A stretch of 64,000 nucleotides of DNA from Chromatiaceae bacterium (GTDB lineage Bacteria; Pseudomonadota; Gammaproteobacteria; Chromatiales; Chromatiaceae). The position numbers and the translations under genes are program-made. A model generated the notes under the pieces. That model saw only the letters and a list, made by a program, of their open reading frames with translations. It was not told the DNA's origin and ran no database searches. The DNA lies in assembly GCA_026984455.1 (NCBI GenBank), contig JALSSC010000011.1, forward strand, positions 1-64,000, in the 5' to 3' direction. The first letter of the stretch is position 1. Each line of letters opens with the position of its first letter. This document shows positions 1 to 45,271 of this stretch, piece by piece.

Positions 1-555
1 TACTTGTCCGACGACGAGCGCGAGGCCCTGTTGGCCGCCTGCCGTGAATCACTCAACCCCTGGTTGTACACCGCCGTCGTCGTGGCCCTGTCCACCGGGA
101 TGCGGCAATCGGAATTGATGTGGTTGAGATGGCGCGACGTGGATCTGGACGGGGGCCGGATCGTCCTGCACGAGACCAAAAACGGCGAACGGCGGGCGGT
201 GCCCCTGACCGGCCCCGCCCTGGCGTTGCTGCGCGAGCACTCGAAGGCACGACGGACGGATGCGGACCTGCTGTTCCCCGGCCGCCGCAAGGACCGGCCC
301 ATCGAACTGCGCGTCCCCTGGATGGCGGCACTGAAACGCGCCGGGATCGAGGATTTCCGCTGGCACGATTTGCGCCATTCAACAGCCTCATATCTGGCCA
401 TGAACGGCGCCACCCTGGCCGAGATAGCCGAGGTCCTGGGGCATAAGACCCTGGCCATGGTGAAGCGCTACGCCCACCTGAGCGAGGCCCATACGGCATC
501 CGTGGTGGAACGGATGAATCGGCGGATATTCGGGGGCGGCCATGGACAGGAGTGA
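1..555 (+). CDS. Tyrosine recombinase (phage integrase family), C-terminal catalytic part
   Basis: The reading frame is open from the first base, so the N-terminal arm-binding and core-binding parts lie to the left of the window. What is visible is the whole catalytic domain: Arg in STGMRQSEL, Lys in ETKNGERR, the His-x-x-Arg box in WHDLRHS, the second His in LGHKT, and the nucleophilic Tyr in VKRYAHL. All catalytic positions are intact, so the enzyme looks active. It should catalyse integration and excision of the island at the tRNA-Thr site whose 3' copy is at 5245-5292. The stop codon overlaps the next gene by 14 nt, suggesting co-transcription. Confidence 0.93.
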   Translation, partial: YLSDDEREALLAACRESLNPWLYTAVVVALSTGMRQSELMWLRWRDVDLDGGRIVLHETKNGERRAVPLTGPALALLREHSKARRTDADLLFPGRRKDRPIELRVPWMAALKRAGIEDFRWHDLRHSTASYLAMNGATLAEIAEVLGHKTLAMVKRYAHLSEAHTASVVERMNRRIFGGGHGQE

Positions 556-961
556 GGACCTGCGATTCATGGTATCGGCGGCCCAGCAAGGGGATGAGGC
601 CGCGGCCCGCACACTGGCGCGTATGGCGTCCGAGACGCTGTACCAAGGCGGAGAGATGCATCCGTCCCTGGTTACCTGGTTGGCCGGCGCCCTGGCCCGC
701 TATGGGCGTGGTGAAGCGAATTTGAACCATTCATTCGCCCCAATGAAGCGCCCACCCAAAGGTATTCCCAAAGCGCGACGGTCATTCAATGAAATGGCCA
801 TATCCTATTGGGTAGACCGGGCTATTGAGCAAGGTTTATCGACAGGAAGCGATACGGGCGAACCAGGCCCCGCGTTTGAATATGTGGCTGAAGCAGTTGG
901 ATTGGCCGCCAGTACGGTGCGCGATATTTATTACCGCTACCAGAGCAAGGGGAGGGAGTAG
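542..961 (+). CDS. Hypothetical island protein with C-terminal helix-turn-helix-like segment
   Basis: A 139-residue protein starting inside the 3' end of the integrase gene (ATG at 542). I do not recognise a named family. The N-terminal half is helical and Ala-rich. The C-terminal segment, roughly residues 110-139 (VAEAVGLAASTVRDIYYRYQ), has the spacing of a helix-turn-helix with a recognition helix starting at AASTVR. It may be a DNA-binding regulator of the island, but that rests on pattern only. It is translationally coupled to the recombinase by overlap. No frameshift or truncation is seen. Confidence 0.7.
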   Translation: MDRSEDLRFMVSAAQQGDEAAARTLARMASETLYQGGEMHPSLVTWLAGALARYGRGEANLNHSFAPMKRPPKGIPKARRSFNEMAISYWVDRAIEQGLSTGSDTGEPGPAFEYVAEAVGLAASTVRDIYYRYQSKGRE

Positions 962-1066
962 GCCGGATTCGTGGATTTCGCATTTTTTGCAAAAATCACG
1001 AATACACAGGACCCGCGTTTGCGTTCACGCTTGTTCTCGCAATCACCAACAACGAGGACAAGCACG

Positions 1067-1309
1067 ATGCATTACATCGACGACACCACCGCCACCGCAC
1101 CCACCACCCCGCCGCCGTCAAGGATCTTGCTTTCTGTAAAGCAACTTGTCGCCGAACAGCCCGCACTGACGACCGGGAGCATCAGGTGGCAACTCTTCAA
1201 CCGGAAGGCAAACGGTCTCGCAGAATCGGGAGCGATAATTAAACGCGGGTCCCGAATTCTCATTGACCGGGAGAAATACCTTGACTGGTTGGCCGAGGAG
1301 TCACGGTAA
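1067..1309 (+). CDS. Small excisionase/AlpA-like DNA-binding protein
   Basis: The frame stays open upstream to 971, but the ATG at 1067 is preferred because a GAGG ribosome-binding site sits 9 nt before it. The product is 80 residues: a Thr/Pro-rich N-terminus, then a compact winged-helix-like segment reading SVKQLVAEQPALTTGSIRW, a basic middle (FNRKANG), and IIKRGSRILIDREKYLDWL. The order of sensor helix, recognition helix, beta-wing with R-I-L-I, then terminal helix is the layout of MerR-superfamily Xis/AlpA proteins. In satellites such proteins direct excision or activate the replication genes. The stop overlaps the start of the primase gene (TAATG). Confidence 0.72.
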   Translation: MHYIDDTTATAPTTPPPSRILLSVKQLVAEQPALTTGSIRWQLFNRKANGLAESGAIIKRGSRILIDREKYLDWLAEESR

Positions 1310-1881
1310 TGGACTTCAACACTGCAAAAGCAGCTGCCGCCGGTCGCTGGCCATCGATCTGGAAGGCCCTTGGCGTCGGGGAAGTCCCACCTCTGGGCCG
1401 GCACGGGCCGTGTCCGGGATGCCGGGGCCGGGACCGTTTTCGTCTTCTGCCGCAAGAACTGGAAGATGGGGGTTGGGTCTGCGGACAAGGCGGTGCGCCA
1501 ACCGGTGGTGACGGATTCGGCTTGCTTGTCCATTGCGGCATTGCTCGCACCCCTGGCGAGGCCCTGCGCCTCGTTGCCGCCTATCTGGGACTCGACACCA
1601 AGGCCGACCCGGCAGCCCGCCAACGGGCACGAGAGGCCGCCCAGCGCCGTGATAGGGAACGCCTAGAAACCGCCCTGGCCCACGAGCTTGTTGTTTTATT
1701 AACCGTGTTGGACGCACGCCTCGCCGGCCGCGAGGTCGCGCGAGACCGACGTTTCCGCGAGGCCCGGCCCGAGTGGCTGCCGCTGCCCGGGGAACACTGG
1801 GAGCGCGAAACGCTGGCCGCCCGCCGGGTGGTGGCCCTGGCGGGCAGGCTCTACCCACCGAACAGGAGGGCCGCCGCATGA
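1309..1881 (+). CDS. Phage/satellite-type primase zinc-binding protein
   Basis: A 190-residue protein whose ATG overlaps the preceding stop codon. Residues about 30-75 form a CHC2-like zinc finger: CPGCRGRDRFRL, then GGWVC followed by a Gly-rich stretch and GGDGFGLL. This matches the zinc-ribbon plus downstream Leu pattern of P4-alpha-type primases, although the fourth ligand is less clear than usual (VCGQGG rather than CxxC). The C-terminal half is Arg/Ala-rich and helical. No Toprim catalytic domain is visible, so primer synthesis, if any, must depend on the next protein or a host enzyme. The stop overlaps the start of the DUF927 gene by 4 nt. Confidence 0.78.
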   Translation: MDFNTAKAAAAGRWPSIWKALGVGEVPPLGRHGPCPGCRGRDRFRLLPQELEDGGWVCGQGGAPTGGDGFGLLVHCGIARTPGEALRLVAAYLGLDTKADPAARQRAREAAQRRDRERLETALAHELVVLLTVLDARLAGREVARDRRFREARPEWLPLPGEHWERETLAARRVVALAGRLYPPNRRAAA

Positions 1882-3749
1882 GTGCCGCCGAAGACCTGGA
1901 AAAGACCCTCGCGGCCATCGACGCCGAGCTGGGCATCGACGCGCCCGACGACGACACCCCCGAGCCCTGGGCTTGGGTGGACGGCACTGAATGGCGGCAA
2001 CCGCCCGAGAGCGGCACCGAAATTCGGCACGCCCCGCCGGAAGACGACGATCGCCCGCGCTGGTGCTGCTATCTGAAGCCCAATCCGGAAGCCGGCATCC
2101 GCCGGGCTGGCGTCTGGTATCACGGCCTGAAACAGGGCAAGAAGGACGAGCCGCCCCAGCCCGTCGACGAGTGGCTTTGCTCCCCCCTGCTGGTTGAGGC
2201 CGTCACCCGCACCCCCGAGGGGAGCGACTTCGGCCGGCTGCTGCGTTTCCAGGTGGAGGGGCGATGGCGCATCTGGAACATGCCCATGCGCTTACTGGGA
2301 GGTGATCCGGCCGAGCTGCGCCGCGAGCTGCTAGCCGCTGGCGTGGAGATGGACCACCGCAACCCGCGCCGCGTGTTCGACTACCTCACCAGCCTGACGC
2401 CGCGCCGCCACATTCATGCCGCATTGGAGGTGGGGTGGCACGGCGCAGCCTTCGTCCTGCCCGATCGCGTCTTTGGTGAGGCGGAAATTCACTTCCAATC
2501 TGAAAGCGCCCTGGTGGCTGACTACGCCGCCGCAAGCACCCTGCAAACCTGGCAGGACCGTATCGCCCGCCCCGCGATCCGCAATAAGCCGCTGGTTTTT
2601 GCCATCAGCGCCGCCCTGGCTGGTCCCTTGCTGCATCCCGTGCACAAGCAAGGCGCGGGCTTTCACCTCATGGGCGGCAGTTCCTGCGGAAAGACCACTA
2701 CCCTCCAGGCCGCCGCCAGCGTCTGGGGGCCGCCACCGCTGGTGCGCAACTGGCGCGCAACCGCGAACGGGCTGGAAGCGGCCGCCGCCGAGGCCAATGA
2801 CCTGTGTCTGATCCTGGACGAAATCGGCGAGTGCACCCCCAAGGACGTGGGCAGGGTGGTGTACGCAATGGGCAACGGCACCGGCAAAATCCGTGCCACG
2901 CAAAAGGGCTACGCCCGCCGTGTCCGCCGCTGGCGGACTGTGCTGATCTCTAGTGGGGAAAAAACCCTCGACAGCATCCTGCGCGAGGCTGGGGAGCGCG
3001 TTACCGCCGGCCAGGACGTGCGGCTGCTGTCTCTTCCCGCCGACGGCTTCGCGCATGGGGTTTTCGATGAACTACACGGCCATGCCAACGGTGCCGACCT
3101 TGCCAACGCCATCAAGACCGCGGCCAGCGAGACCTACGGCACCGCCGGCCGCGCCTGGCTGACCTGGCTGGCCGACCACCTGGCCGCCCCCTGGGCCGAC
3201 ACCCTGCGCCGCATGGCTGACAGCCTGCAGCCCGAGAACGGACAGGAGGCCCGCGCCGCCGAGGCCTTCGCCCTGGTGGCGATGGCCGGAGAGAAGGCGA
3301 TCGAGGCTGGCATCCTGCCATGGGAGACAGGCGAGGCCGTCGCCGCTGTGCGCGAGATGTGGGAGCGCTGGCGCGAACAGCGCGGCCAAGGCCCCGCCGA
3401 GCTGCGCCAGGTGGTGGAGGCCCTGTCCGGCTTCATCGCCCGCTACGAGGCCCGCTTCGAGGACCGCGACTATCCCACCGACCGCCCCATCCACGACCGG
3501 GCCGGGTACATCAAGGACGGCGACTTCCATTTTATCCCCGCTGTGTTCAAGGAGGCCATCGGCGGCATGGACGCCAACCTTGCCAAACGTTTGCTATTTG
3601 AAGCCGGCTATCTGGCTGCAGGGGATGGCAAGCACCTGGGCCGGAATCTATGGGTAGGGAAGCGCACTCAGCGAGTCGTTAGCGTGCGCGCCGACATTCT
3701 TGACGGTGAAATGGGTGGGAAGAGTGGGAAGGGTGGGAATGTCGTTTGA
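1878..3749 (+). CDS. DUF927-domain helicase/primase-like ATPase
   Basis: Start ATG 1878 is chosen because a perfect AGGAGGG lies 7 nt upstream; the frame itself is open further left. The 623-residue product has an acidic N-terminus, then a DUF927 ATPase core: Walker A GGSSCGKTTTLQ near residue 270 and Walker B LCLILDEIGE near residue 310. The next conserved stretch includes GTGKIRATQKG. DUF927 proteins sit in phage and plasmid replication modules and are regarded as superfamily helicase/primase components. Here the gene directly follows the zinc-finger primase and its 3' end runs into the iteron array, so it is the likely replication initiator or helicase of the island. It is full length with no disrupted motif. 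Confidence 0.88.
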   Translation: MSAAEDLEKTLAAIDAELGIDAPDDDTPEPWAWVDGTEWRQPPESGTEIRHAPPEDDDRPRWCCYLKPNPEAGIRRAGVWYHGLKQGKKDEPPQPVDEWLCSPLLVEAVTRTPEGSDFGRLLRFQVEGRWRIWNMPMRLLGGDPAELRRELLAAGVEMDHRNPRRVFDYLTSLTPRRHIHAALEVGWHGAAFVLPDRVFGEAEIHFQSESALVADYAAASTLQTWQDRIARPAIRNKPLVFAISAALAGPLLHPVHKQGAGFHLMGGSSCGKTTTLQAAASVWGPPPLVRNWRATANGLEAAAAEANDLCLILDEIGECTPKDVGRVVYAMGNGTGKIRATQKGYARRVRRWRTVLISSGEKTLDSILREAGERVTAGQDVRLLSLPADGFAHGVFDELHGHANGADLANAIKTAASETYGTAGRAWLTWLADHLAAPWADTLRRMADSLQPENGQEARAAEAFALVAMAGEKAIEAGILPWETGEAVAAVREMWERWREQRGQGPAELRQVVEALSGFIARYEARFEDRDYPTDRPIHDRAGYIKDGDFHFIPAVFKEAIGGMDANLAKRLLFEAGYLAAGDGKHLGRNLWVGKRTQRVVSVRADILDGEMGGKSGKGGNVV

Positions 3750-3921
3750 TAATCAATGTGTTGCGGCATTCCCACCCCCTTGCAAGAGGTGGGAAGGGGT
3801 GGGAAGGGAATCCCCGCGCCATGAGCCGCCTTCCCACCCCTTCCCACCTTCCCAGCACAGGTGGGAAGGCTGTAAGCGATTGATATGCAAAGAGTCTTCC
3901 CACCCTTCCCACCATTCCCAC
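3715..3921. repeat. Mirror-symmetric array of 12 GTGGGAA iterons, candidate replication origin
   Basis: Six direct copies of GTGGGAA start at 3715, 3724, 3733, 3789, 3799 and 3861. Six inverted copies (TTCCCAC) start at 3769, 3831, 3841, 3897, 3906 and 3915. Every copy has an exactly placed mirror partner about base 3818, giving the order +++ - ++ -- + ---. Neighbouring copies are 9 or 10 bp apart, about one helical turn. Two less GC-rich gaps (about 3740-3768 and 3868-3896) are partly complementary to each other. The first three copies lie inside the end of the DUF927 gene. Position beside primase and helicase genes, iteron spacing and dyad symmetry suggest an origin bound by an island-encoded initiator. 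Function is inferred; the repeat positions are read directly. Confidence 0.85.
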
Positions 3922-3975
3922 CGTCTGAACCGGCTCCAAAGCAAAAACACAGAGAACACACGGAGAACGCACGCC

Positions 3976-4605
3976 ATGAGCGCACTTCAACCCCTTATCG
4001 AACAGGGTTTCCCCGCCCACCTGGCCGAACAGATAACGGCCGAGATCCTGGACCAGTACGGGGAGGAACCGTGCACTAGGGAGCAGGCCGCCGCCCACGA
4101 GGCCGGGCATTGGGTGGTCGGCGACACCCTAGGCCTGGCCCCCTACCGCTGGTTGCGGGTGTTTCGAGAGCGCGGCAAGTGGCTGGGCGAAAACATCGAG
4201 GTGAGCCCGGTCTCGGCCAACATCTTTGAAGACCCAGACAGGTACAGGGTTACCGCCCTTCAGGTGATCGCTGGCTTTATTGGTGAGGCGGCTGCTGGGC
4301 ACTTCCATCCGTCATCGAGCATCGACGAGCGCATCAGGCTGGAAGCGAGTTGTGCTGGCTTGTCTCAACTGTATGGCGGCCGGCCAGAGGCCCTGTTAGC
4401 GGGCGCCATGGTGACTGTCGCAGAGATCATCCAGGCCCGACAGGATGACTTCTACCTGGTGCGCCGCCACTTGGAGAGAGAACGCCGCATCCTGCGCCCA
4501 CGACTGGATGCCCTGAGCCGACCAAACCGAGACACCTGGTTGCTTCGGTGGGATCGGTTGAGCCATGGAATTGAACAGCGAGGCCGCCGGCTGGGACATG
4601 GATGA
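3976..4605 (+). CDS. HEAGH zinc-metalloprotease-like protein (peptidase M41-like)
   Basis: A 209-residue protein starting at ATG 3976 with GGAGA 9 nt upstream. The open frame extends back through the iteron array to 3700, but that part is low-complexity repeat translation and is excluded. Residues 37-48 read EQAAAHEAGHWV, an HExxH zinc-binding site of the HEAGH type typical of FtsH (M41) proteases. No AAA+ domain or membrane segment accompanies it. The rest is helical, ending Arg-rich. Stand-alone M41-like domains occur in phage-related islands, but their substrates are not known to me. The gene sits between the candidate origin and the terminase small subunit gene. It could act on a host or helper-phage protein; this is speculation. 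Confidence 0.7.
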   Translation: MSALQPLIEQGFPAHLAEQITAEILDQYGEEPCTREQAAAHEAGHWVVGDTLGLAPYRWLRVFRERGKWLGENIEVSPVSANIFEDPDRYRVTALQVIAGFIGEAAAGHFHPSSSIDERIRLEASCAGLSQLYGGRPEALLAGAMVTVAEIIQARQDDFYLVRRHLERERRILRPRLDALSRPNRDTWLLRWDRLSHGIEQRGRRLGHG

Positions 4606-4711
4606 GGCCCGGGATAGGGCGAGAGCGACGGAGCGCAGAGAGTTCGAGGCCGGGTTGGCCGCCGAACGTGTGGACACTTCACGGGACATATCGGAGCGCA
4701 CTAATGGGTAA
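4565..4711 (+). CDS. Possible 48-residue acidic/basic small protein
   Basis: A short frame begins at ATG 4565 inside the end of the metalloprotease-like gene (a second ATG lies at 4598) and ends at 4711, overlapping the start of the terminase small subunit by 8 nt. The product is highly charged (for example DMDEARDRARATERREFEAG) and would be one long helix. The chained overlaps fit the tight packing of this operon. No strong ribosome-binding site is seen and no family is recognised, so it may be a chance frame. Confidence 0.35.
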   Translation: MELNSEAAGWDMDEARDRARATERREFEAGLAAERVDTSRDISERTNG

Positions 4712-5108
4712 GTTGACACTAAAGCAGGAGGCTTTCGTTCAGGCCTACATGAATTGTGGGAATGCGAGTGAGGCGTACCGGCAGGCTTACGATGCGTCCC
4801 GGATGAAGCCGGAGACCGTCAGCAGAAAGGCGGCGGAACTGCTAAGGAACGGCAAAGTTACGGCAAGGCTGGACGCCCTACGCGCCGAACTCGCCGACCG
4901 GCACCTGTGGACCCGTGAACAGTCCGTGAAGGCTTTGACCAAGGTGATCGAGGACCCGGACCGACAGGCCGACGTGATCGCGGCGGTGCGGGCACTCAAT
5001 GAAATGCATGGATACAACGCGCCGGCCAAACGGGAGATCACGGGCCCGGGTGGCCAGCCGACCACCACCCGAATCGTGATCGACTGGGGGGACGATAACG
5101 ACGCATAA
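4704..5108 (+). CDS. Phage terminase small subunit (TerS, Terminase_2 family)
   Basis: Start ATG 4704 has GGAG 7 nt upstream and fits the family start. The 134-residue protein opens with LTLKQEAFVQAYMNCGNASE, continues AYRQAYD, then METVSRKAAELL-like spacing in MKPETVSRKAAELLRNGKV. This is the DNA-binding helix-turn-helix of Terminase_2 small subunits. The C-terminal part (ALNEMHGYNAPAKREITG) is the usual oligomerisation and tail region. TerS recognises the pac site and feeds DNA to the large subunit. No large subunit or structural gene follows, so a helper phage would have to supply them. This is the last gene of the island before the attachment site. Confidence 0.88.
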   Translation: MGKLTLKQEAFVQAYMNCGNASEAYRQAYDASRMKPETVSRKAAELLRNGKVTARLDALRAELADRHLWTREQSVKALTKVIEDPDRQADVIAAVRALNEMHGYNAPAKREITGPGGQPTTTRIVIDWGDDNDA

Positions 5109-5160
5109 CGTCGCGTTTCTGTGGGACACTCATGGGACACTTCGGGGCAAAAAAGGCCAG

Positions 5161-5169
5161 TTATCCACA
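5161..5169 (+). promoter_or_regulatory. DnaA-box-like site (TTATCCACA)
   Basis: The 9-mer TTATCCACA matches the DnaA box consensus TTATNCACA exactly. It lies in the non-coding tail of the island between terS and the attachment site. A single box can occur by chance, so a role in replication is only a possibility. Confidence 0.35.
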
Positions 5170-5244
5170 ACTAAACGCAACGAGCGTAACCCCGTATGTG
5201 TATGTTTTTCTTGTTGTTTCGTGTTGAGCGATAATGTATAAGTG

Positions 5245-5292
5245 GGATTTGTAATCCGCAGGTCCAGGGTTCGAATCCCTGCGCCAGCTCCA
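5245..5292 (+). other. attR-like site: 3' part of a tRNA-Thr(UGU) gene
   Basis: From the anticodon arm onward the sequence is a proper tRNA: loop TTTGTAA with anticodon TGT, variable loop AGGTC, a T arm with CAGGG and CCCTG around TTCGAAT, the 3' acceptor strand CGCCAGC, discriminator T and encoded CCA. Upstream there is no D arm and no 5' acceptor strand. The 5' half of the anticodon stem pairs only over its inner three bases. It is therefore a fragment, not a working gene. Such 3' tRNA copies are the usual mark of tyrosine-recombinase integration, with the intact tRNA at the other end of the element. Confidence 0.85.
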
Positions 5293-6651: not shown

Positions 6652-6996
6652 CTATATATCCCTTCCACAATGACTGCATACCGCCGCCTCGGATTTGACC
6701 CACTCAGCACAGTGAGGGCATTTCTTCGCGACATCCAGGTCGATTCCGCAATGCCCGCAGACCTCGGCCTCAGTTTTGATCAACTCGGCACAGTGAGGAC
6801 ATTTCTTGGCGAGCCCTTTGTCGATCAGACTCTTGTCGGAGGGAGGGATCAATACCGTGGCGACCAATGCGATCAGGGGGGAAAACACCAACCCGAGCAA
6901 CAGGAACCCGAATACATTGATGGTGCTGTGTCCGCGCGCAAAGGCATACAAGGCGACCAGAATCGAGAGCACGATCCAGAGAGTGATGTAGAGCAT
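6652..6996 (-). CDS. Membrane protein with two zinc ribbons
   Basis: A 114-residue protein; GGAG lies 7 nt before the start codon. The N-terminus has two membrane helices (about residues 2-20 and 26-50). The C-terminal half holds two near-identical zinc ribbons: CPHCAELIKTEAEVCGHCG and then CPHCAEWVKSEAAVCSHCG, each with two CxxC knuckles. The pair looks like an internal tandem duplication. Such double-zinc-ribbon membrane proteins are common in Proteobacteria without an assigned role. The rest of this small cluster (7277-8770) is on the same strand. Confidence 0.82.
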   Translation of the reverse strand: MLYITLWIVLSILVALYAFARGHSTINVFGFLLLGLVFSPLIALVATVLIPPSDKSLIDKGLAKKCPHCAELIKTEAEVCGHCGIDLDVAKKCPHCAEWVKSEAAVCSHCGRDI

Positions 6997-12622: not shown

Positions 12623-14266
12623 ATGCCCGCCATCCACGACACCCCCCAGTGGGCCGCCCTGAACCATCACCGTGAGGTCATGGAACCGCGTCACCTGCGC
12701 CATCTGTTCGCGGAGGATCCGCAGCGCTTCGAGCAGATGACCCTGCGCGCCGCCGGTTTGATGCTGGACTATTCCAAGAACCGGGTCACCCGCAACACCC
12801 TCGAACTCCTGTTCGAACTGGCCGAGGCGGCGGACCTGGACGGCTGGATCCGGCGCATGTTCTCGGGCGACCGCATCAACAACACCGAAGGCCGGGCGGT
12901 ACTGCACGTGGCCCTGCGCAACCGCAGTGGGCGTCCAGTGTGGGTGGACGGCGAGGATGTCATGCCCAAGGTCGAGCGGGTGCTGGAGCACATGGCGGAC
13001 TTCAGCCGGCGGGTACGTAGCGGGGAATGGGTCGGGTACACCGGCCGCGCCATCAGCGACGTCGTCAACATCGGTATCGGCGGCTCCAATCTCGGGCCGA
13101 AGATGGTCTGCCGGGCCCTGGGCCATTTTCACGACGGGCCGCGGGTGCATTTCGTCTCCAACGTGGACCCCACGCACGTGGGCGAGACACTCGCCCGCCT
13201 GGACCCCGAGACCACCCTGTTCGTGGTGGCCTCCAAGACCTTCACCACCCAGGAGACCCTGGCCAACGCCCGCGCGGCGCGCGCCTGGTGTCTGGACGGC
13301 CTGGGTGACGAGGCGGCCGTGGCCCGCCATTTCGTGGCGGTCTCCACCCATGCCGAACGGGTGGCCGAGTTCGGAATCGACACCGCCAACATGTTCGAGT
13401 TCTGGGACTGGGTGGGTGGCCGTTATTCCCTGTGGTCGGCCATCGGTCTGCCCATCTGCCTGGCCCTGGGCATGGAACGCTTCGTGGCCTTGCTGGAGGG
13501 CGCCCACGCCATGGACGAGCACTTCGTCACCGCCGCGCCCTCCGAAAACATGCCGGTGATCCTGGGCCTGCTGGGCATCTGGTATACGGATTTTCTCGGC
13601 ACCACGAGCCAGGCGATCCTCCCCTACGACCAATACCTGCGCCACTTGCCGGCCTATCTGCAACAGTTGGAGATGGAGAGCAACGGCAAGCGCGTCACCC
13701 GCGACGGCCAGCCGGTGGCCTATCCCACCGCGCCGGTGATCTGGGGCGAGCCCGGCACCGACGGGCAACACGCCTTCTACCAACTCATCCACCAGGGTAC
13801 GCAATCGATCCCCTGCGACTTCATCGCCGCGGTGAACAATCCGAATGACCGCCTGGGGATGCACGCCATGCTGCTCGCCAACTGTTTCGCCCAGAGCGAG
13901 GCCCTGATGCGCGGCCGCAGCCACGAAGAGGCCCTGCAGGAACTCCTGCAGCAGGGCATGGCGGCCGAAGCGGCCGAGGCCCTGGCCCCGCACCGGGTCT
14001 TCCCGGGCAACCGCCCCAGCAACACCCTGCTCATGGAGCGCCTCGAACCCCGCACCCTGGGCGCCCTCATCGCCCTCTACGAGCACAAGGTCTTCGTCCA
14101 GGGCGTGATCTGGGGCATCGACTCCTTCGATCAATGGGGGGTGGAGCTGGGCAAGCAACTGGCGGGGGTGATCCTGCCCGAACTGGAACAAGGGCTGGTG
14201 CGCGACAGCCATGACGCCTCCACCCGCGGCCTGCTCGACTACTGCCTGCGCCATCGCCGACCATGA
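12623..14266 (+). CDS. pgi: Glucose-6-phosphate isomerase
   Basis: A 547-residue enzyme starting at ATG 12623 with AAGGAGAT just upstream; the frame is open further left through the repeat element but that part is not protein-like. It interconverts glucose-6-phosphate and fructose-6-phosphate in glycolysis, gluconeogenesis and glycogen turnover. Visible motifs: [15 protein letters not shown] (phosphate loop), [13 protein letters not shown], the first PGI signature region around [20 protein letters not shown], and [16 protein letters not shown] near the C-terminus. The length is normal. Its stop overlaps the trkA start (ATGA), so the K+ uptake genes are probably co-transcribed with it. Confidence 0.97.
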
Positions 14267-18613: not shown

Positions 18614-19081
18614 ATGCCTACTTTTGTGCGTACTGACAAGTGCGACGGCTGCAAAGGCCAGGACAAGACCGCTTGCATGTATATCTGCCCCCATGACCTG
18701 ATGAAGCTGGACATGGACGGTTCCGACACCGGTCACGCCATGCGGGCCTACAACCAGGAGCCCGAGCAGTGCTGGGAGTGCTACTCCTGCGTCAAGATCT
18801 GCCCCCAGCAGGCCATCGAGGCCCGTCACTATGCCGACGTGGTCCCCATGGGCGCCTCCGTGCAACCCCTGCGCGGCACCGACTCCATCATGTGGACCAT
18901 CAAGTTCCGCAACGGCACCATGAAGCGCTTCAAGTTCCCCATCCGCACCACCCCCGAAGGCTCCATCGATCCCTACACCGGCAAGCCGACGGCCGATCTC
19001 GCCAACATCTCCGCAGCCGGTTACTTCAATACCGATGGCGCCCCGCATGGTGCCGACGAGAGCCAGCTGATCTGCAAGTAA
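18614..19081 (+). CDS. aprB: Adenylylsulfate (APS) reductase, beta subunit
   Basis: A 155-residue iron-sulfur subunit of normal length, preceded by AGGAG. The N-terminal half carries two [4Fe-4S] sites: CDGCKGQDKTAC...CP (with the long loop typical of AprB) and CWECYSCVKICP. The C-terminal part (SIMWTIKFRNGTMKRFKFPI) is the beta-sheet and tail that wraps around the alpha subunit. In sulfur oxidisers the enzyme runs in reverse, making APS from sulfite and AMP in the cytoplasm, with electrons passing through these clusters to a membrane partner. It is followed 46 nt later by aprA. Confidence 0.97.
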   Translation: MPTFVRTDKCDGCKGQDKTACMYICPHDLMKLDMDGSDTGHAMRAYNQEPEQCWECYSCVKICPQQAIEARHYADVVPMGASVQPLRGTDSIMWTIKFRNGTMKRFKFPIRTTPEGSIDPYTGKPTADLANISAAGYFNTDGAPHGADESQLICK

Positions 19082-19127
19082 GGCGCCCATCGACTACACA
19101 CTGGATTCACAGACTGAGGTAAGAGCA

Positions 19128-21113
19128 ATGGCAGGAGAATTCGGAAATCCCGAAATCATCGAAGAAGAGGTCGATATCCTCATCATCGGCGGCGGCATGG
19201 GCGCCTGTGGCGCGGCCTACGAGATCGGCCCCTGGCTGGACGCAGCCAAGAAAGAGGGCGTGGACATCAAGGTCAAGCTGGTGGACAAGGCCGCCATGGA
19301 CCGTTCCGGCGCCGTGGCCCAGGGCCTGTCGGCCATCAACACCTATCTCGGCGAGAACGATCCCGCCGACTACGCCCGCATGGTCTCCAACGACCTCATG
19401 GGTATCACCCGCGACGATCTGGCCTACGACCTGGGCCGTCACGTGGATGACTCCGTGCACCTGTTCGAGGAGTGGGGTCTGCCCATCTGGAAGCAGCCCG
19501 GCGACGAGGGCAAGGCCCTGACCGAAGGCGGCAAGCCCGTCCGCTCCGGCAAGTGGCAGATCATGATCAACGGCGAATCCTACAAGTGGATCGTCGCCGA
19601 GGCCGCCAAGAAGGCCCTGGGCACCGACCGTATCCAGGAGCGTGTCTTCATCGTCAAGCTGGTCAACGACAAGAACGACGCCAACCGCGTCGCCGGCGCC
19701 GTCGGCTTCTCGGTGCGCGAGCACAAGCTGTACGTGTACAAGTTCAAGGCCTGCCTGCTGGTGGCCGGCGGCTGCGTCAACATCTTCCGTCCCCGCTCCG
19801 TGGGTGAGGGCACCGGCCGTGCCTGGTACCCCGTGTGGAACGCCGGCTCCACCTATGCCATGGCCGCCGAGGCCGGGGCCGAGCTGACCATGATGGAGAA
19901 CCGCTTCGTGCCCTGTCGCTTCAAGGACGGTTACGGCCCGGTGGGTGCCTGGTTCCTGCTCTTCAAGTCCCGCGCCATCAACGGCTTCGGCGAGGAGTAC
20001 CTGTCCAAGCCCGAGGCCCAGTCCCTGTTGGAGCCCTACGGCCCCTACAACAAGGCCTACGTCACCCCGACCTGCCTGCGCAACCACGTCATGCTGGACG
20101 AGATGATCAACGGCCGTGGTCCCATCTACATGGACACCGTGACCGCCCTGGGCAAGCTGGCCGAGACCATGACCCCCAAGGAGATCAAGCACCTGGAGGC
20201 CGAGGCCTGGGAAGACTTCCTCGACATGTGCATCGGCCAGGCCGGCGTCTGGGCGGGTGAGAACATCGAGCCCGAGAAGCGCAACTCCGAGCTGATGCCC
20301 ACCGAGCCCTACCTGCTCGGCTCCCATTCCGGCTGCTGCGGTATCTGGGTGTCCGGCCCCGAGGATCTGGGTGCGCCCACCGACGAGGGACATGCCGAGG
20401 CGGACAAGATCCCGGGGCATCTGCCCAAGGGCTGGAACTGGGGTTACCGCTCCATGACCACCGTCAAGGGCCTGTTCACCGCCGCCGACGGCGTCGGCGC
20501 CTCCGGCCACAAGTTCTCCTCGGGCTCCCACGCCGAGGGACGCCTGGCGGCCAAGGCCATGGTCAAGTTCGTCATGGACAACAAGGACTGGACCCCCGAA
20601 CTGGACACCACCGTGGACGAGCTGGTCGAGGAGATCTACCGCCCGGTGCGCACCTTCCTGGAACACAAGGACTACACCACCGCGGTGGACGTGAACCCCA
20701 ACTACATCACCCCCAAGATGTTGCAGTTCCGTCTGCAGAAGATCATGGACGAATACGTGGCCGGTGTGGCGACCTACTACCGCACCAACGCCAACATGAT
20801 GGAGGTGGCCGAGGCCAAGTTGGCGATGCTCAAGGAGGACGCCCTCAAGATGCGCGCCAAGGACCTGCACGAGCTGCTGCGGGCCTGGGAGAACTACCAC
20901 CGCATCCTGGCCGCCGAGGCCCACATGAAGCACATCGAGTTCCGTAAGGAATCCCGTTATCCGGGCTTCTACTATCGCATGGACTATAACTTCATCGACG
21001 ACGAGAACTGGAAGTGCTTCGTCAACTCGGTCTACGACCGCAAGACCAAGAGCTGGACCGTGTTCAAGCGTAAGCACGTGGACCTGGTGGACAAGGCGTC
21101 CTCCTTCAAGTAA
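19128..21113 (+). CDS. aprA: Adenylylsulfate (APS) reductase, alpha subunit
   Basis: A 661-residue flavoprotein of normal length. The FAD-binding site is at the N-terminus: VDILIIGGGMGACGAAYEIG. Substrate and FAD contact regions include DRSGAVAQGLSAINTYLG and the SGSHAEGRLAAKAMVKF segment. Together with AprB it catalyses the AMP-dependent step between sulfite and APS. A strong intrinsic terminator follows directly, so aprBA forms its own unit. Neither aprM nor qmoABC, the usual electron-transfer partners, is next to it here, and no sulfate adenylyltransferase gene is in the window. Confidence 0.98.
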   Translation: MAGEFGNPEIIEEEVDILIIGGGMGACGAAYEIGPWLDAAKKEGVDIKVKLVDKAAMDRSGAVAQGLSAINTYLGENDPADYARMVSNDLMGITRDDLAYDLGRHVDDSVHLFEEWGLPIWKQPGDEGKALTEGGKPVRSGKWQIMINGESYKWIVAEAAKKALGTDRIQERVFIVKLVNDKNDANRVAGAVGFSVREHKLYVYKFKACLLVAGGCVNIFRPRSVGEGTGRAWYPVWNAGSTYAMAAEAGAELTMMENRFVPCRFKDGYGPVGAWFLLFKSRAINGFGEEYLSKPEAQSLLEPYGPYNKAYVTPTCLRNHVMLDEMINGRGPIYMDTVTALGKLAETMTPKEIKHLEAEAWEDFLDMCIGQAGVWAGENIEPEKRNSELMPTEPYLLGSHSGCCGIWVSGPEDLGAPTDEGHAEADKIPGHLPKGWNWGYRSMTTVKGLFTAADGVGASGHKFSSGSHAEGRLAAKAMVKFVMDNKDWTPELDTTVDELVEEIYRPVRTFLEHKDYTTAVDVNPNYITPKMLQFRLQKIMDEYVAGVATYYRTNANMMEVAEAKLAMLKEDALKMRAKDLHELLRAWENYHRILAAEAHMKHIEFRKESRYPGFYYRMDYNFIDDENWKCFVNSVYDRKTKSWTVFKRKHVDLVDKASSFK

Positions 21114-45004: not shown

Positions 45005-45271
45005 AATCCGTAAGGCGGGAAAGCGACAGCGCATCCCGCCGTATACATCAGGTCCGTAGGTCCGTAGGGCGGGAAAGCGACAGCGCATCCCGCCGTGAGG
45101 AGATCCGCCAGCGCTCCCAGGTCCGTAGGGCGGGAAAGCGACAGCGCATCCCGCCGTGAGGAGATCCGCCAGCGCTCCCAGGTCCGTAGGGCGGGAAAGC
45201 GACAGCGCATCCCGCCGTGAGGAGATCCGCCAGCGCTCCCACACATGCAGCGCATCCCGCCGTATACATCA
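45005..45271. repeat. Tandem 61-bp REP-like repeats (3 full, 2 partial)
   Basis: Full units at 45060-45120, 45121-45181 and 45182-45242 are nearly identical. Each begins GTCCGTAGGGCGGGAAAGCG and contains GGCGGGA ... TCCCGCC, a 7-bp stem. Partial copies flank them (45005-45051 and 45243-45271), both ending CGCCGTATACATCAG. The last overlaps the stop codon of the SPOR gene. The region is the only thing between two genes (44937 and 45269). It could be a transcript-end structure or a REP-type element amplified in tandem. It is not a CRISPR array: there are no unique spacers. Confidence 0.88.

Follow-up and report, generated by a model that had tools for sequence, protein, structure and literature searches.

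We analyzed the first 5,292 bp (1-5292) of a 64,000-nucleotide stretch of Chromatiaceae DNA (the window), which forms the beginning of contig JALSSC010000011.1 in an assembly of 79 contigs that is 94% complete. The first base of the window is also the first base of the contig, and both the start of the integrase gene and the left border of the element lie beyond the assembled sequence. A preliminary description had listed at this locus a tyrosine recombinase, an Xis/AlpA-like protein, a Zn-finger primase, a DUF927 ATPase, an iteron array, a HEAGH protein and a terminase small subunit (TerS), all on one strand and ending in a tRNA fragment, and open reading frame, Pfam and PHROG searches together with repeat counts recovered every one of these parts in a single orientation. 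Its further statement that structural and large terminase genes are lacking also holds, in that neither Pfam nor PHROG matches any in the readable part.

The readable sequence opens with the C-terminal 184 amino acids of the tyrosine recombinase (1..555, + strand; Pfam Phage_integrase, E 2e-34), with approximately 185 N-terminal residues lying beyond the contig end. The fragment contains the catalytic motifs TGMR, HDLRH, GH and RYAH, and corresponds to residues 186-368 of the 368-residue integrases of a Thiodictyon island (L146; 70% identical over 181 residues) and a Thiocystis island (L142; 67%). A 139-codon open reading frame (542..961, +) overlaps int by 14 nt and has a weak C-terminal helix-turn-helix (HTH_23, E 0.12, below the cut-off); two further DUF927 islands, L041 and L148, have homologues with 43-44% identity behind their integrase genes. 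The 80-residue product of the next gene (1067..1309, +) is a candidate excisionase or regulator of the Xis/AlpA type, with a weak match to the PHROG excisionases (E 0.029) and 58% identity to the products of open reading frames at the equivalent place behind the related integrases of L142 and L146. No master repressor is recognizable in the element.

The replication module begins with a 190-residue protein (1309..1881, +) matching Zn_Ribbon_Prim (E 1.8e-7). The zinc-binding part of its earlier naming as a Zn-finger primase is borne out but the primase part is not, as the protein contains neither a TOPRIM nor an AEP catalytic domain. Its counterpart in a homologous element of a Sedimenticola genome (L039, see below) is of similar length (192 residues), and a 293-residue TOPRIM protein occupies the same place in genome G202. 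The following gene (1878..3749, +) codes for a DUF927 protein (Pfam, E 7e-78), a predicted MCM-like replicative helicase of the SaPIbov1 Rep/Cch type; a profile built from it and its relatives matches the PDB entries 8tch ('Pathogenicity island protein', E 8e-28) and 5dgk ('Active helicase', E 7e-23), which indicates that it is related to the replicative helicases of SaPIs and SCCmec. Cch itself contains DUF927 and is kin to the SaPIbov1 Rep helicase, and SaPI origins consist of iterons immediately downstream of rep (PMC7581432).

An array of this kind is found at 3715..3921, where there are 12 GTGGGAA/TTCCCAC heptamers, six on each strand, compared with 0.1 expected from dinucleotide shuffles, none of 1,000 of which reaches 12. 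The array is a probable replication origin, and the locus has the arrangement of a SaPI-type replicon, in which the gene for a Rep-type helicase is followed directly by a predicted iteron origin. L039 has eight GTGGGAA heptamers with the same core at the same position after its DUF927 gene, and several other DUF927 islands, including that of the Pseudomonas satellite phiAH14b, also carry repeated words after the helicase gene, often with a GGGAAC core (simple counts, with no shuffle comparison). Among the islands L040-L058 these words vary between GGTAGC (L040 and L041), GGGAAC and GGGACC types, suggesting that origin specificity may diverge along with the helicase.

Downstream of the array lie two further genes. 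The 209-residue HEAGH protein (3976..4605, +) has no significant Pfam match of its own, although its distant relatives in G131, G139 and G121 give matches to Peptidase_M41 that fall short of the Pfam cut-off (E-values 3.5e-5 to 3e-3); the G131 relative adjoins a DUF927 gene. The family profile matches FtsH chains (E 1e-7), the best Foldseek matches of the predicted structure (mean pLDDT 80) are also FtsH (probability 1.0, E 3e-3), and residues H41, E42, H45 and D117-E118 are invariant across six aligned sequences. The protein is best read as a putative free M41-like zinc-peptidase domain lacking the AAA+ part of FtsH.

The last gene encodes a 134-residue small terminase subunit of the Terminase_2 family (4704..5108, +; Pfam E 5e-11, PHROG TerS E 4.5e-21), and profile comparison matches it to the TerS proteins of Pam5 (E 4e-12) and of an SPP1-like phage (3zqp, E 2e-5). 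Foldseek searches with its predicted structure (mean pLDDT 82.6) identify the small terminases of SF6, PaP3 and NV1 with high probabilities and modest E-values (0.01 upwards), and the fold comparison shows the DNA-binding region and the central region of small terminases both retained.

The right border is a 47-nt 3' fragment of tRNA-Thr(UGU), CCA included (5246..5292, +), which represents attR and matches in extent the tRNA-Thr(CGU) core that is duplicated in L146. That island has an intact tRNA-Thr(CGU) gene on the left side of its integrase, and a 47-nt stretch from the 3' part of this gene recurs without change 14 kb rightward; the L146 and window cores start at the same tRNA position. From the L146 spacing between the tRNA end (5304) and the integrase start (5757), we estimate that the element is approximately 6.3 kb long, of which approximately 1.0 kb is missing at the left. 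Neither ARAGORN nor Rfam finds a complete tRNA within the window, and searches of the assembly found no left copy or intact tRNA-Thr(UGU), with hits to the 3'-end and tRNA-Thr(UGU) pattern at the right border only. Because a tRNA-Thr(UGU) is expected in the genome, the lack of an intact copy fits its location at the missing left border. An empty integration site in related genomes was unreadable through the neighboring DUF599 gene, whose detected relatives are all distant (24-34% identity). The L142 island was considered as a second user of tRNA-Thr and rejected, as a 20-bp repeat assigns it to tRNA-Lys.

A complete homologous element, L039, is present in a Sedimenticola metagenome-assembled genome (G166, contig JALSRN010000010.1), where it occupies 8.5 kb in ssrA, its limits being the 3' end of ssrA (5552) and a 16-bp copy at 14036. 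It codes for an integrase with an arm-binding domain, AlpA (clearly recognizable here and only weakly so in the window copy), several small open reading frames, the Zn-ribbon protein, DUF927 helicase, iterons, HEAGH protein, TerS and a Mor-like activator, and Pfam identifies no structural or capsid genes within it. Amino acid identities between the window and L039 are 77% for the Zn-ribbon protein, 89% for DUF927, 64% for HEAGH and 61% for TerS, with NG86 dN/dS ratios of 0.15, 0.14, 0.31 and 0.17, respectively, and all four shared genes are under purifying selection. The block running from the Zn-ribbon gene through the helicase, iterons and peptidase to TerS is thus kept while the integrase and the site differ (tRNA-Thr versus ssrA), as in mobile modules, and the fact that the helicases are far closer than TerS and HEAGH, synonymous sites included, points to module exchange. 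The Mor-family activator of L039 (13641-13874), which is encoded right behind TerS and has no counterpart in the window element, might target the late genes of a helper.

These data bear on whether the locus is simply the remnant of an ordinary prophage, in which a tRNA-Thr phage lost its head, tail and large terminase genes and left behind int, the replication genes and terS. TerS is a phage gene and the left-cut assembly hides any lost neighbors, but the same compact block is complete and bounded in L039 with another integrase and site, and its genes are under purifying selection. Moreover, the order Rep, iterons, cargo and TerS is that of SaPIs, whereas terS genes of related phages usually lie near terL: in 35 of 43 related TerS genes on viral contigs a Terminase_3-type large subunit gene (TerL) is found within 4 kb, and there is none on the window or on L039. 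A prophage remnant is accordingly an improbable origin for this locus.

The combination of replicative helicase and TerS also recurs elsewhere. In G202, a member of another gammaproteobacterial family, AlpA, the TOPRIM protein, DUF927 (42%), SSB, a nuclease and TerS (59%) are encoded on one 9-kb contig, and in the single-contig genome G396 ssrA, int, AlpA, TOPRIM, DUF3987 and TerS lie within approximately 6 kb. This last island (L196, 3118-9433), a very compact ssrA island containing int, an open reading frame of no assigned function, and genes for AlpA, a TOPRIM protein, a DUF3987 helicase and a Terminase_2 TerS, has the appearance of a separate miniature satellite carrying TerS.

No resident helper phage was detected. 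The search suggested by the preliminary description, for a helper prophage with a matching large terminase elsewhere in the genome, gave a negative result, with neither Terminase_3 nor an HK97 capsid in the window's assembly or in G166, although these searches would not detect a phage whose head or terminase belongs to other families, and a helper need not reside in the host genome. A PHROG-2 large terminase match in the window's assembly was rejected, since the sequence reads as RecD, and the weaker PHROG-2 match in G166 (20 bits) is doubtful as a large terminase. There are no close DUF927 relatives in IMG/VR and thus no sign of packaging from this source; an alignment-based search of the same collection returned five DUF927 relatives with 37-41% identity, none of which is accompanied by a BLAST match to the window TerS.

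That no helper was found would also fit an SCC- or island-type replicative integrative element independent of phages, in which TerS has been re-used as a DNA-binding protein. SCCmec too has a DUF927 helicase, Cch, and DUF927 occurs both in SCC elements and in other islands that are unproven as satellites; within the window's own family Terminase_2 is absent from most DUF927 islands, being found in three of 22 DUF927-bearing genomes and, in one of these (G028), far from the DUF927 genes. Set against this are the retention in TerS of both the DNA-binding and central regions under purifying selection, its reappearance in other families next to helicases of the DUF927 or DUF3987 kind, and the precedent of phiAH14b, a DUF927 element reported to be packaged in the capsids of its helper phiAH14a (PMC4936722). 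We regard an element independent of phages as very improbable.

We conclude that window 1-5292 likely represents most of a compact phage satellite of the SaPI type (PICI-like) that has inserted into tRNA-Thr(UGU). This reading rests on the complete and bounded L039 element lacking structural genes, the SaPI-type replicon, the relationship of the integrase to that of the tRNA-Thr-using L146 with the same 47-nt core, and the purifying selection, and a satellite with its own TerS, as first proposed for this DNA, remains the best explanation. Weighing against it are the unbounded left end, the failure to detect a helper in the window's assembly or G166, the lack of a recognized repressor and of close DUF927 relatives in IMG/VR, the small size, and the occurrence of DUF927 noted above. 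Such an element would probably be able to replicate and to tag its own DNA for packaging, while borrowing the capsid and packaging motor from a phage.

The anatomy and the homologues together suggest each step of a plausible life cycle. A helper phage would trigger expression of the xis/AlpA-type gene, and integrase and Xis would release the element at the tRNA gene and the 47-nt copy that flank it. Next, the DUF927 helicase would bind the GTGGGAA iterons that follow its gene and open the origin; the polymerase for replication would come from the host or the helper, and the primase would probably be borrowed as well. The SPP1/SF6-type TerS would mark the element DNA for the helper's Terminase_3-type large subunit and thereby for entry into helper capsids, and the resulting particle would inject the element into a new cell, where it would integrate again.

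The FtsH-like peptidase appears to be the element's only candidate for a role in interference or derepression. A tentative and rather unlikely extension is that these elements form a lineage of their own, made up of miniature TerS-carrying satellites in sulfur-metabolizing gammaproteobacteria, in which a SaPIbov1-type replicon is combined with a soluble FtsH-like peptidase cutting a helper or host protein, either a repressor or a capsid-assembly protein. To our knowledge, hijacking by such a peptidase is not known from described satellites, and the M41-like domain offers a candidate, open to testing, for a function new to satellites. The recurrent series of DUF927 helicase, iterons and TerS offers a simple signature for finding more such satellites.

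The genes for adenylylsulfate reductase, aprB and aprA, are present in the window at 18614-21113 with scores well above the NCBIfam cut-offs and support a dissimilatory sulfur metabolism of the host. The earlier proposal of a sulfur-oxidizing host fits both these genes and the relatedness to genomes of Sedimenticola and of the Chromatiaceae type, and the element extends TerS-bearing SaPI-type satellites to a sulfur-metabolizing bacterial group; we found no paper that combines 'phage satellites' with 'sulfur-oxidizing' in the literature searched, the coverage of which is incomplete. Elsewhere in the window, a small membrane-type protein with a duplicated zinc-ribbon motif at its C-terminus is encoded on the minus strand at 6652-6996, its DNA containing an 81-bp tandem repeat (6663-6824), and a 61-bp unit is repeated in tandem at 45007-45241 in three to four copies, three of which are identical.

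Of the two affiliations in the original label 'PICI/P4-like', the PICI/SaPI-like part stands and the P4-like part does not, as Pfam finds no match in the element to Psu, Sid, Delta/Ogr or P4 alpha. The element also differs from capsid-forming PICIs, with no capsid genes of its own in the readable part or in the complete L039. PICIs have a conserved organization of integrase, replication module and master transcriptional regulator, use a unique attachment site never used by prophages, are induced by and packaged in a helper phage, and are typically 12-15 kb in size (PMC6092414). The integrase and replication module are present in the window, the Xis-like regulator is weak by profile (with a clear AlpA in L039), and structural genes and TerL are lacking from the readable part, with approximately 1 kb at the left unread. 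At approximately 6.3 kb by estimate, and 8.5 kb in L039, the elements fall below the usual size; because the published range is given as typical, this lowers confidence in a PICI assignment but remains compatible with it.

Gram-negative PICIs (Fillol-Salom et al. 2018, PMC6092414) share with the window element int, an AlpA/Xis-type regulator, a replication module, in some cases terS, and the lack of structural and lytic genes, but the window element is much smaller and its AlpA identity is weak. The satellite phiAH14b similarly has int, AlpA, a primase and, ahead of GGGAAC-type repeats, a DUF927 helicase that is 34% identical, but it is 16.8 kb long with many more genes, and its record names no TerS. 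The PICMI satellites of Vibrionaceae are of similar size, at approximately 6 kb, and have int with an overlapping small gene, alpA, a replication gene and no capsid genes (PMC10803314); however, PICMI115 (6.1 kb) lacks terS and adjoins fis, whereas the window element carries TerS and is located at tRNA-Thr. SaPIs with a SaPIbov1-type replicon share int, xis, a Rep of the DUF927 kind, iterons directly downstream of rep, a TerS gene downstream in the same direction and the lack of structural genes. In contrast to SaPIs, which are approximately 15 kb, the window element has no recognized Stl-type divergent repressor or capsid-remodelling genes, is less than half the length, and combines a gammaproteobacterial host with an FtsH-like peptidase. 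It is very small for an element still carrying its own packaging specificity, and its anatomy, as read from the sequence, matches a SaPI-type or PICI-like satellite shrunk to about the size of a PICMI.
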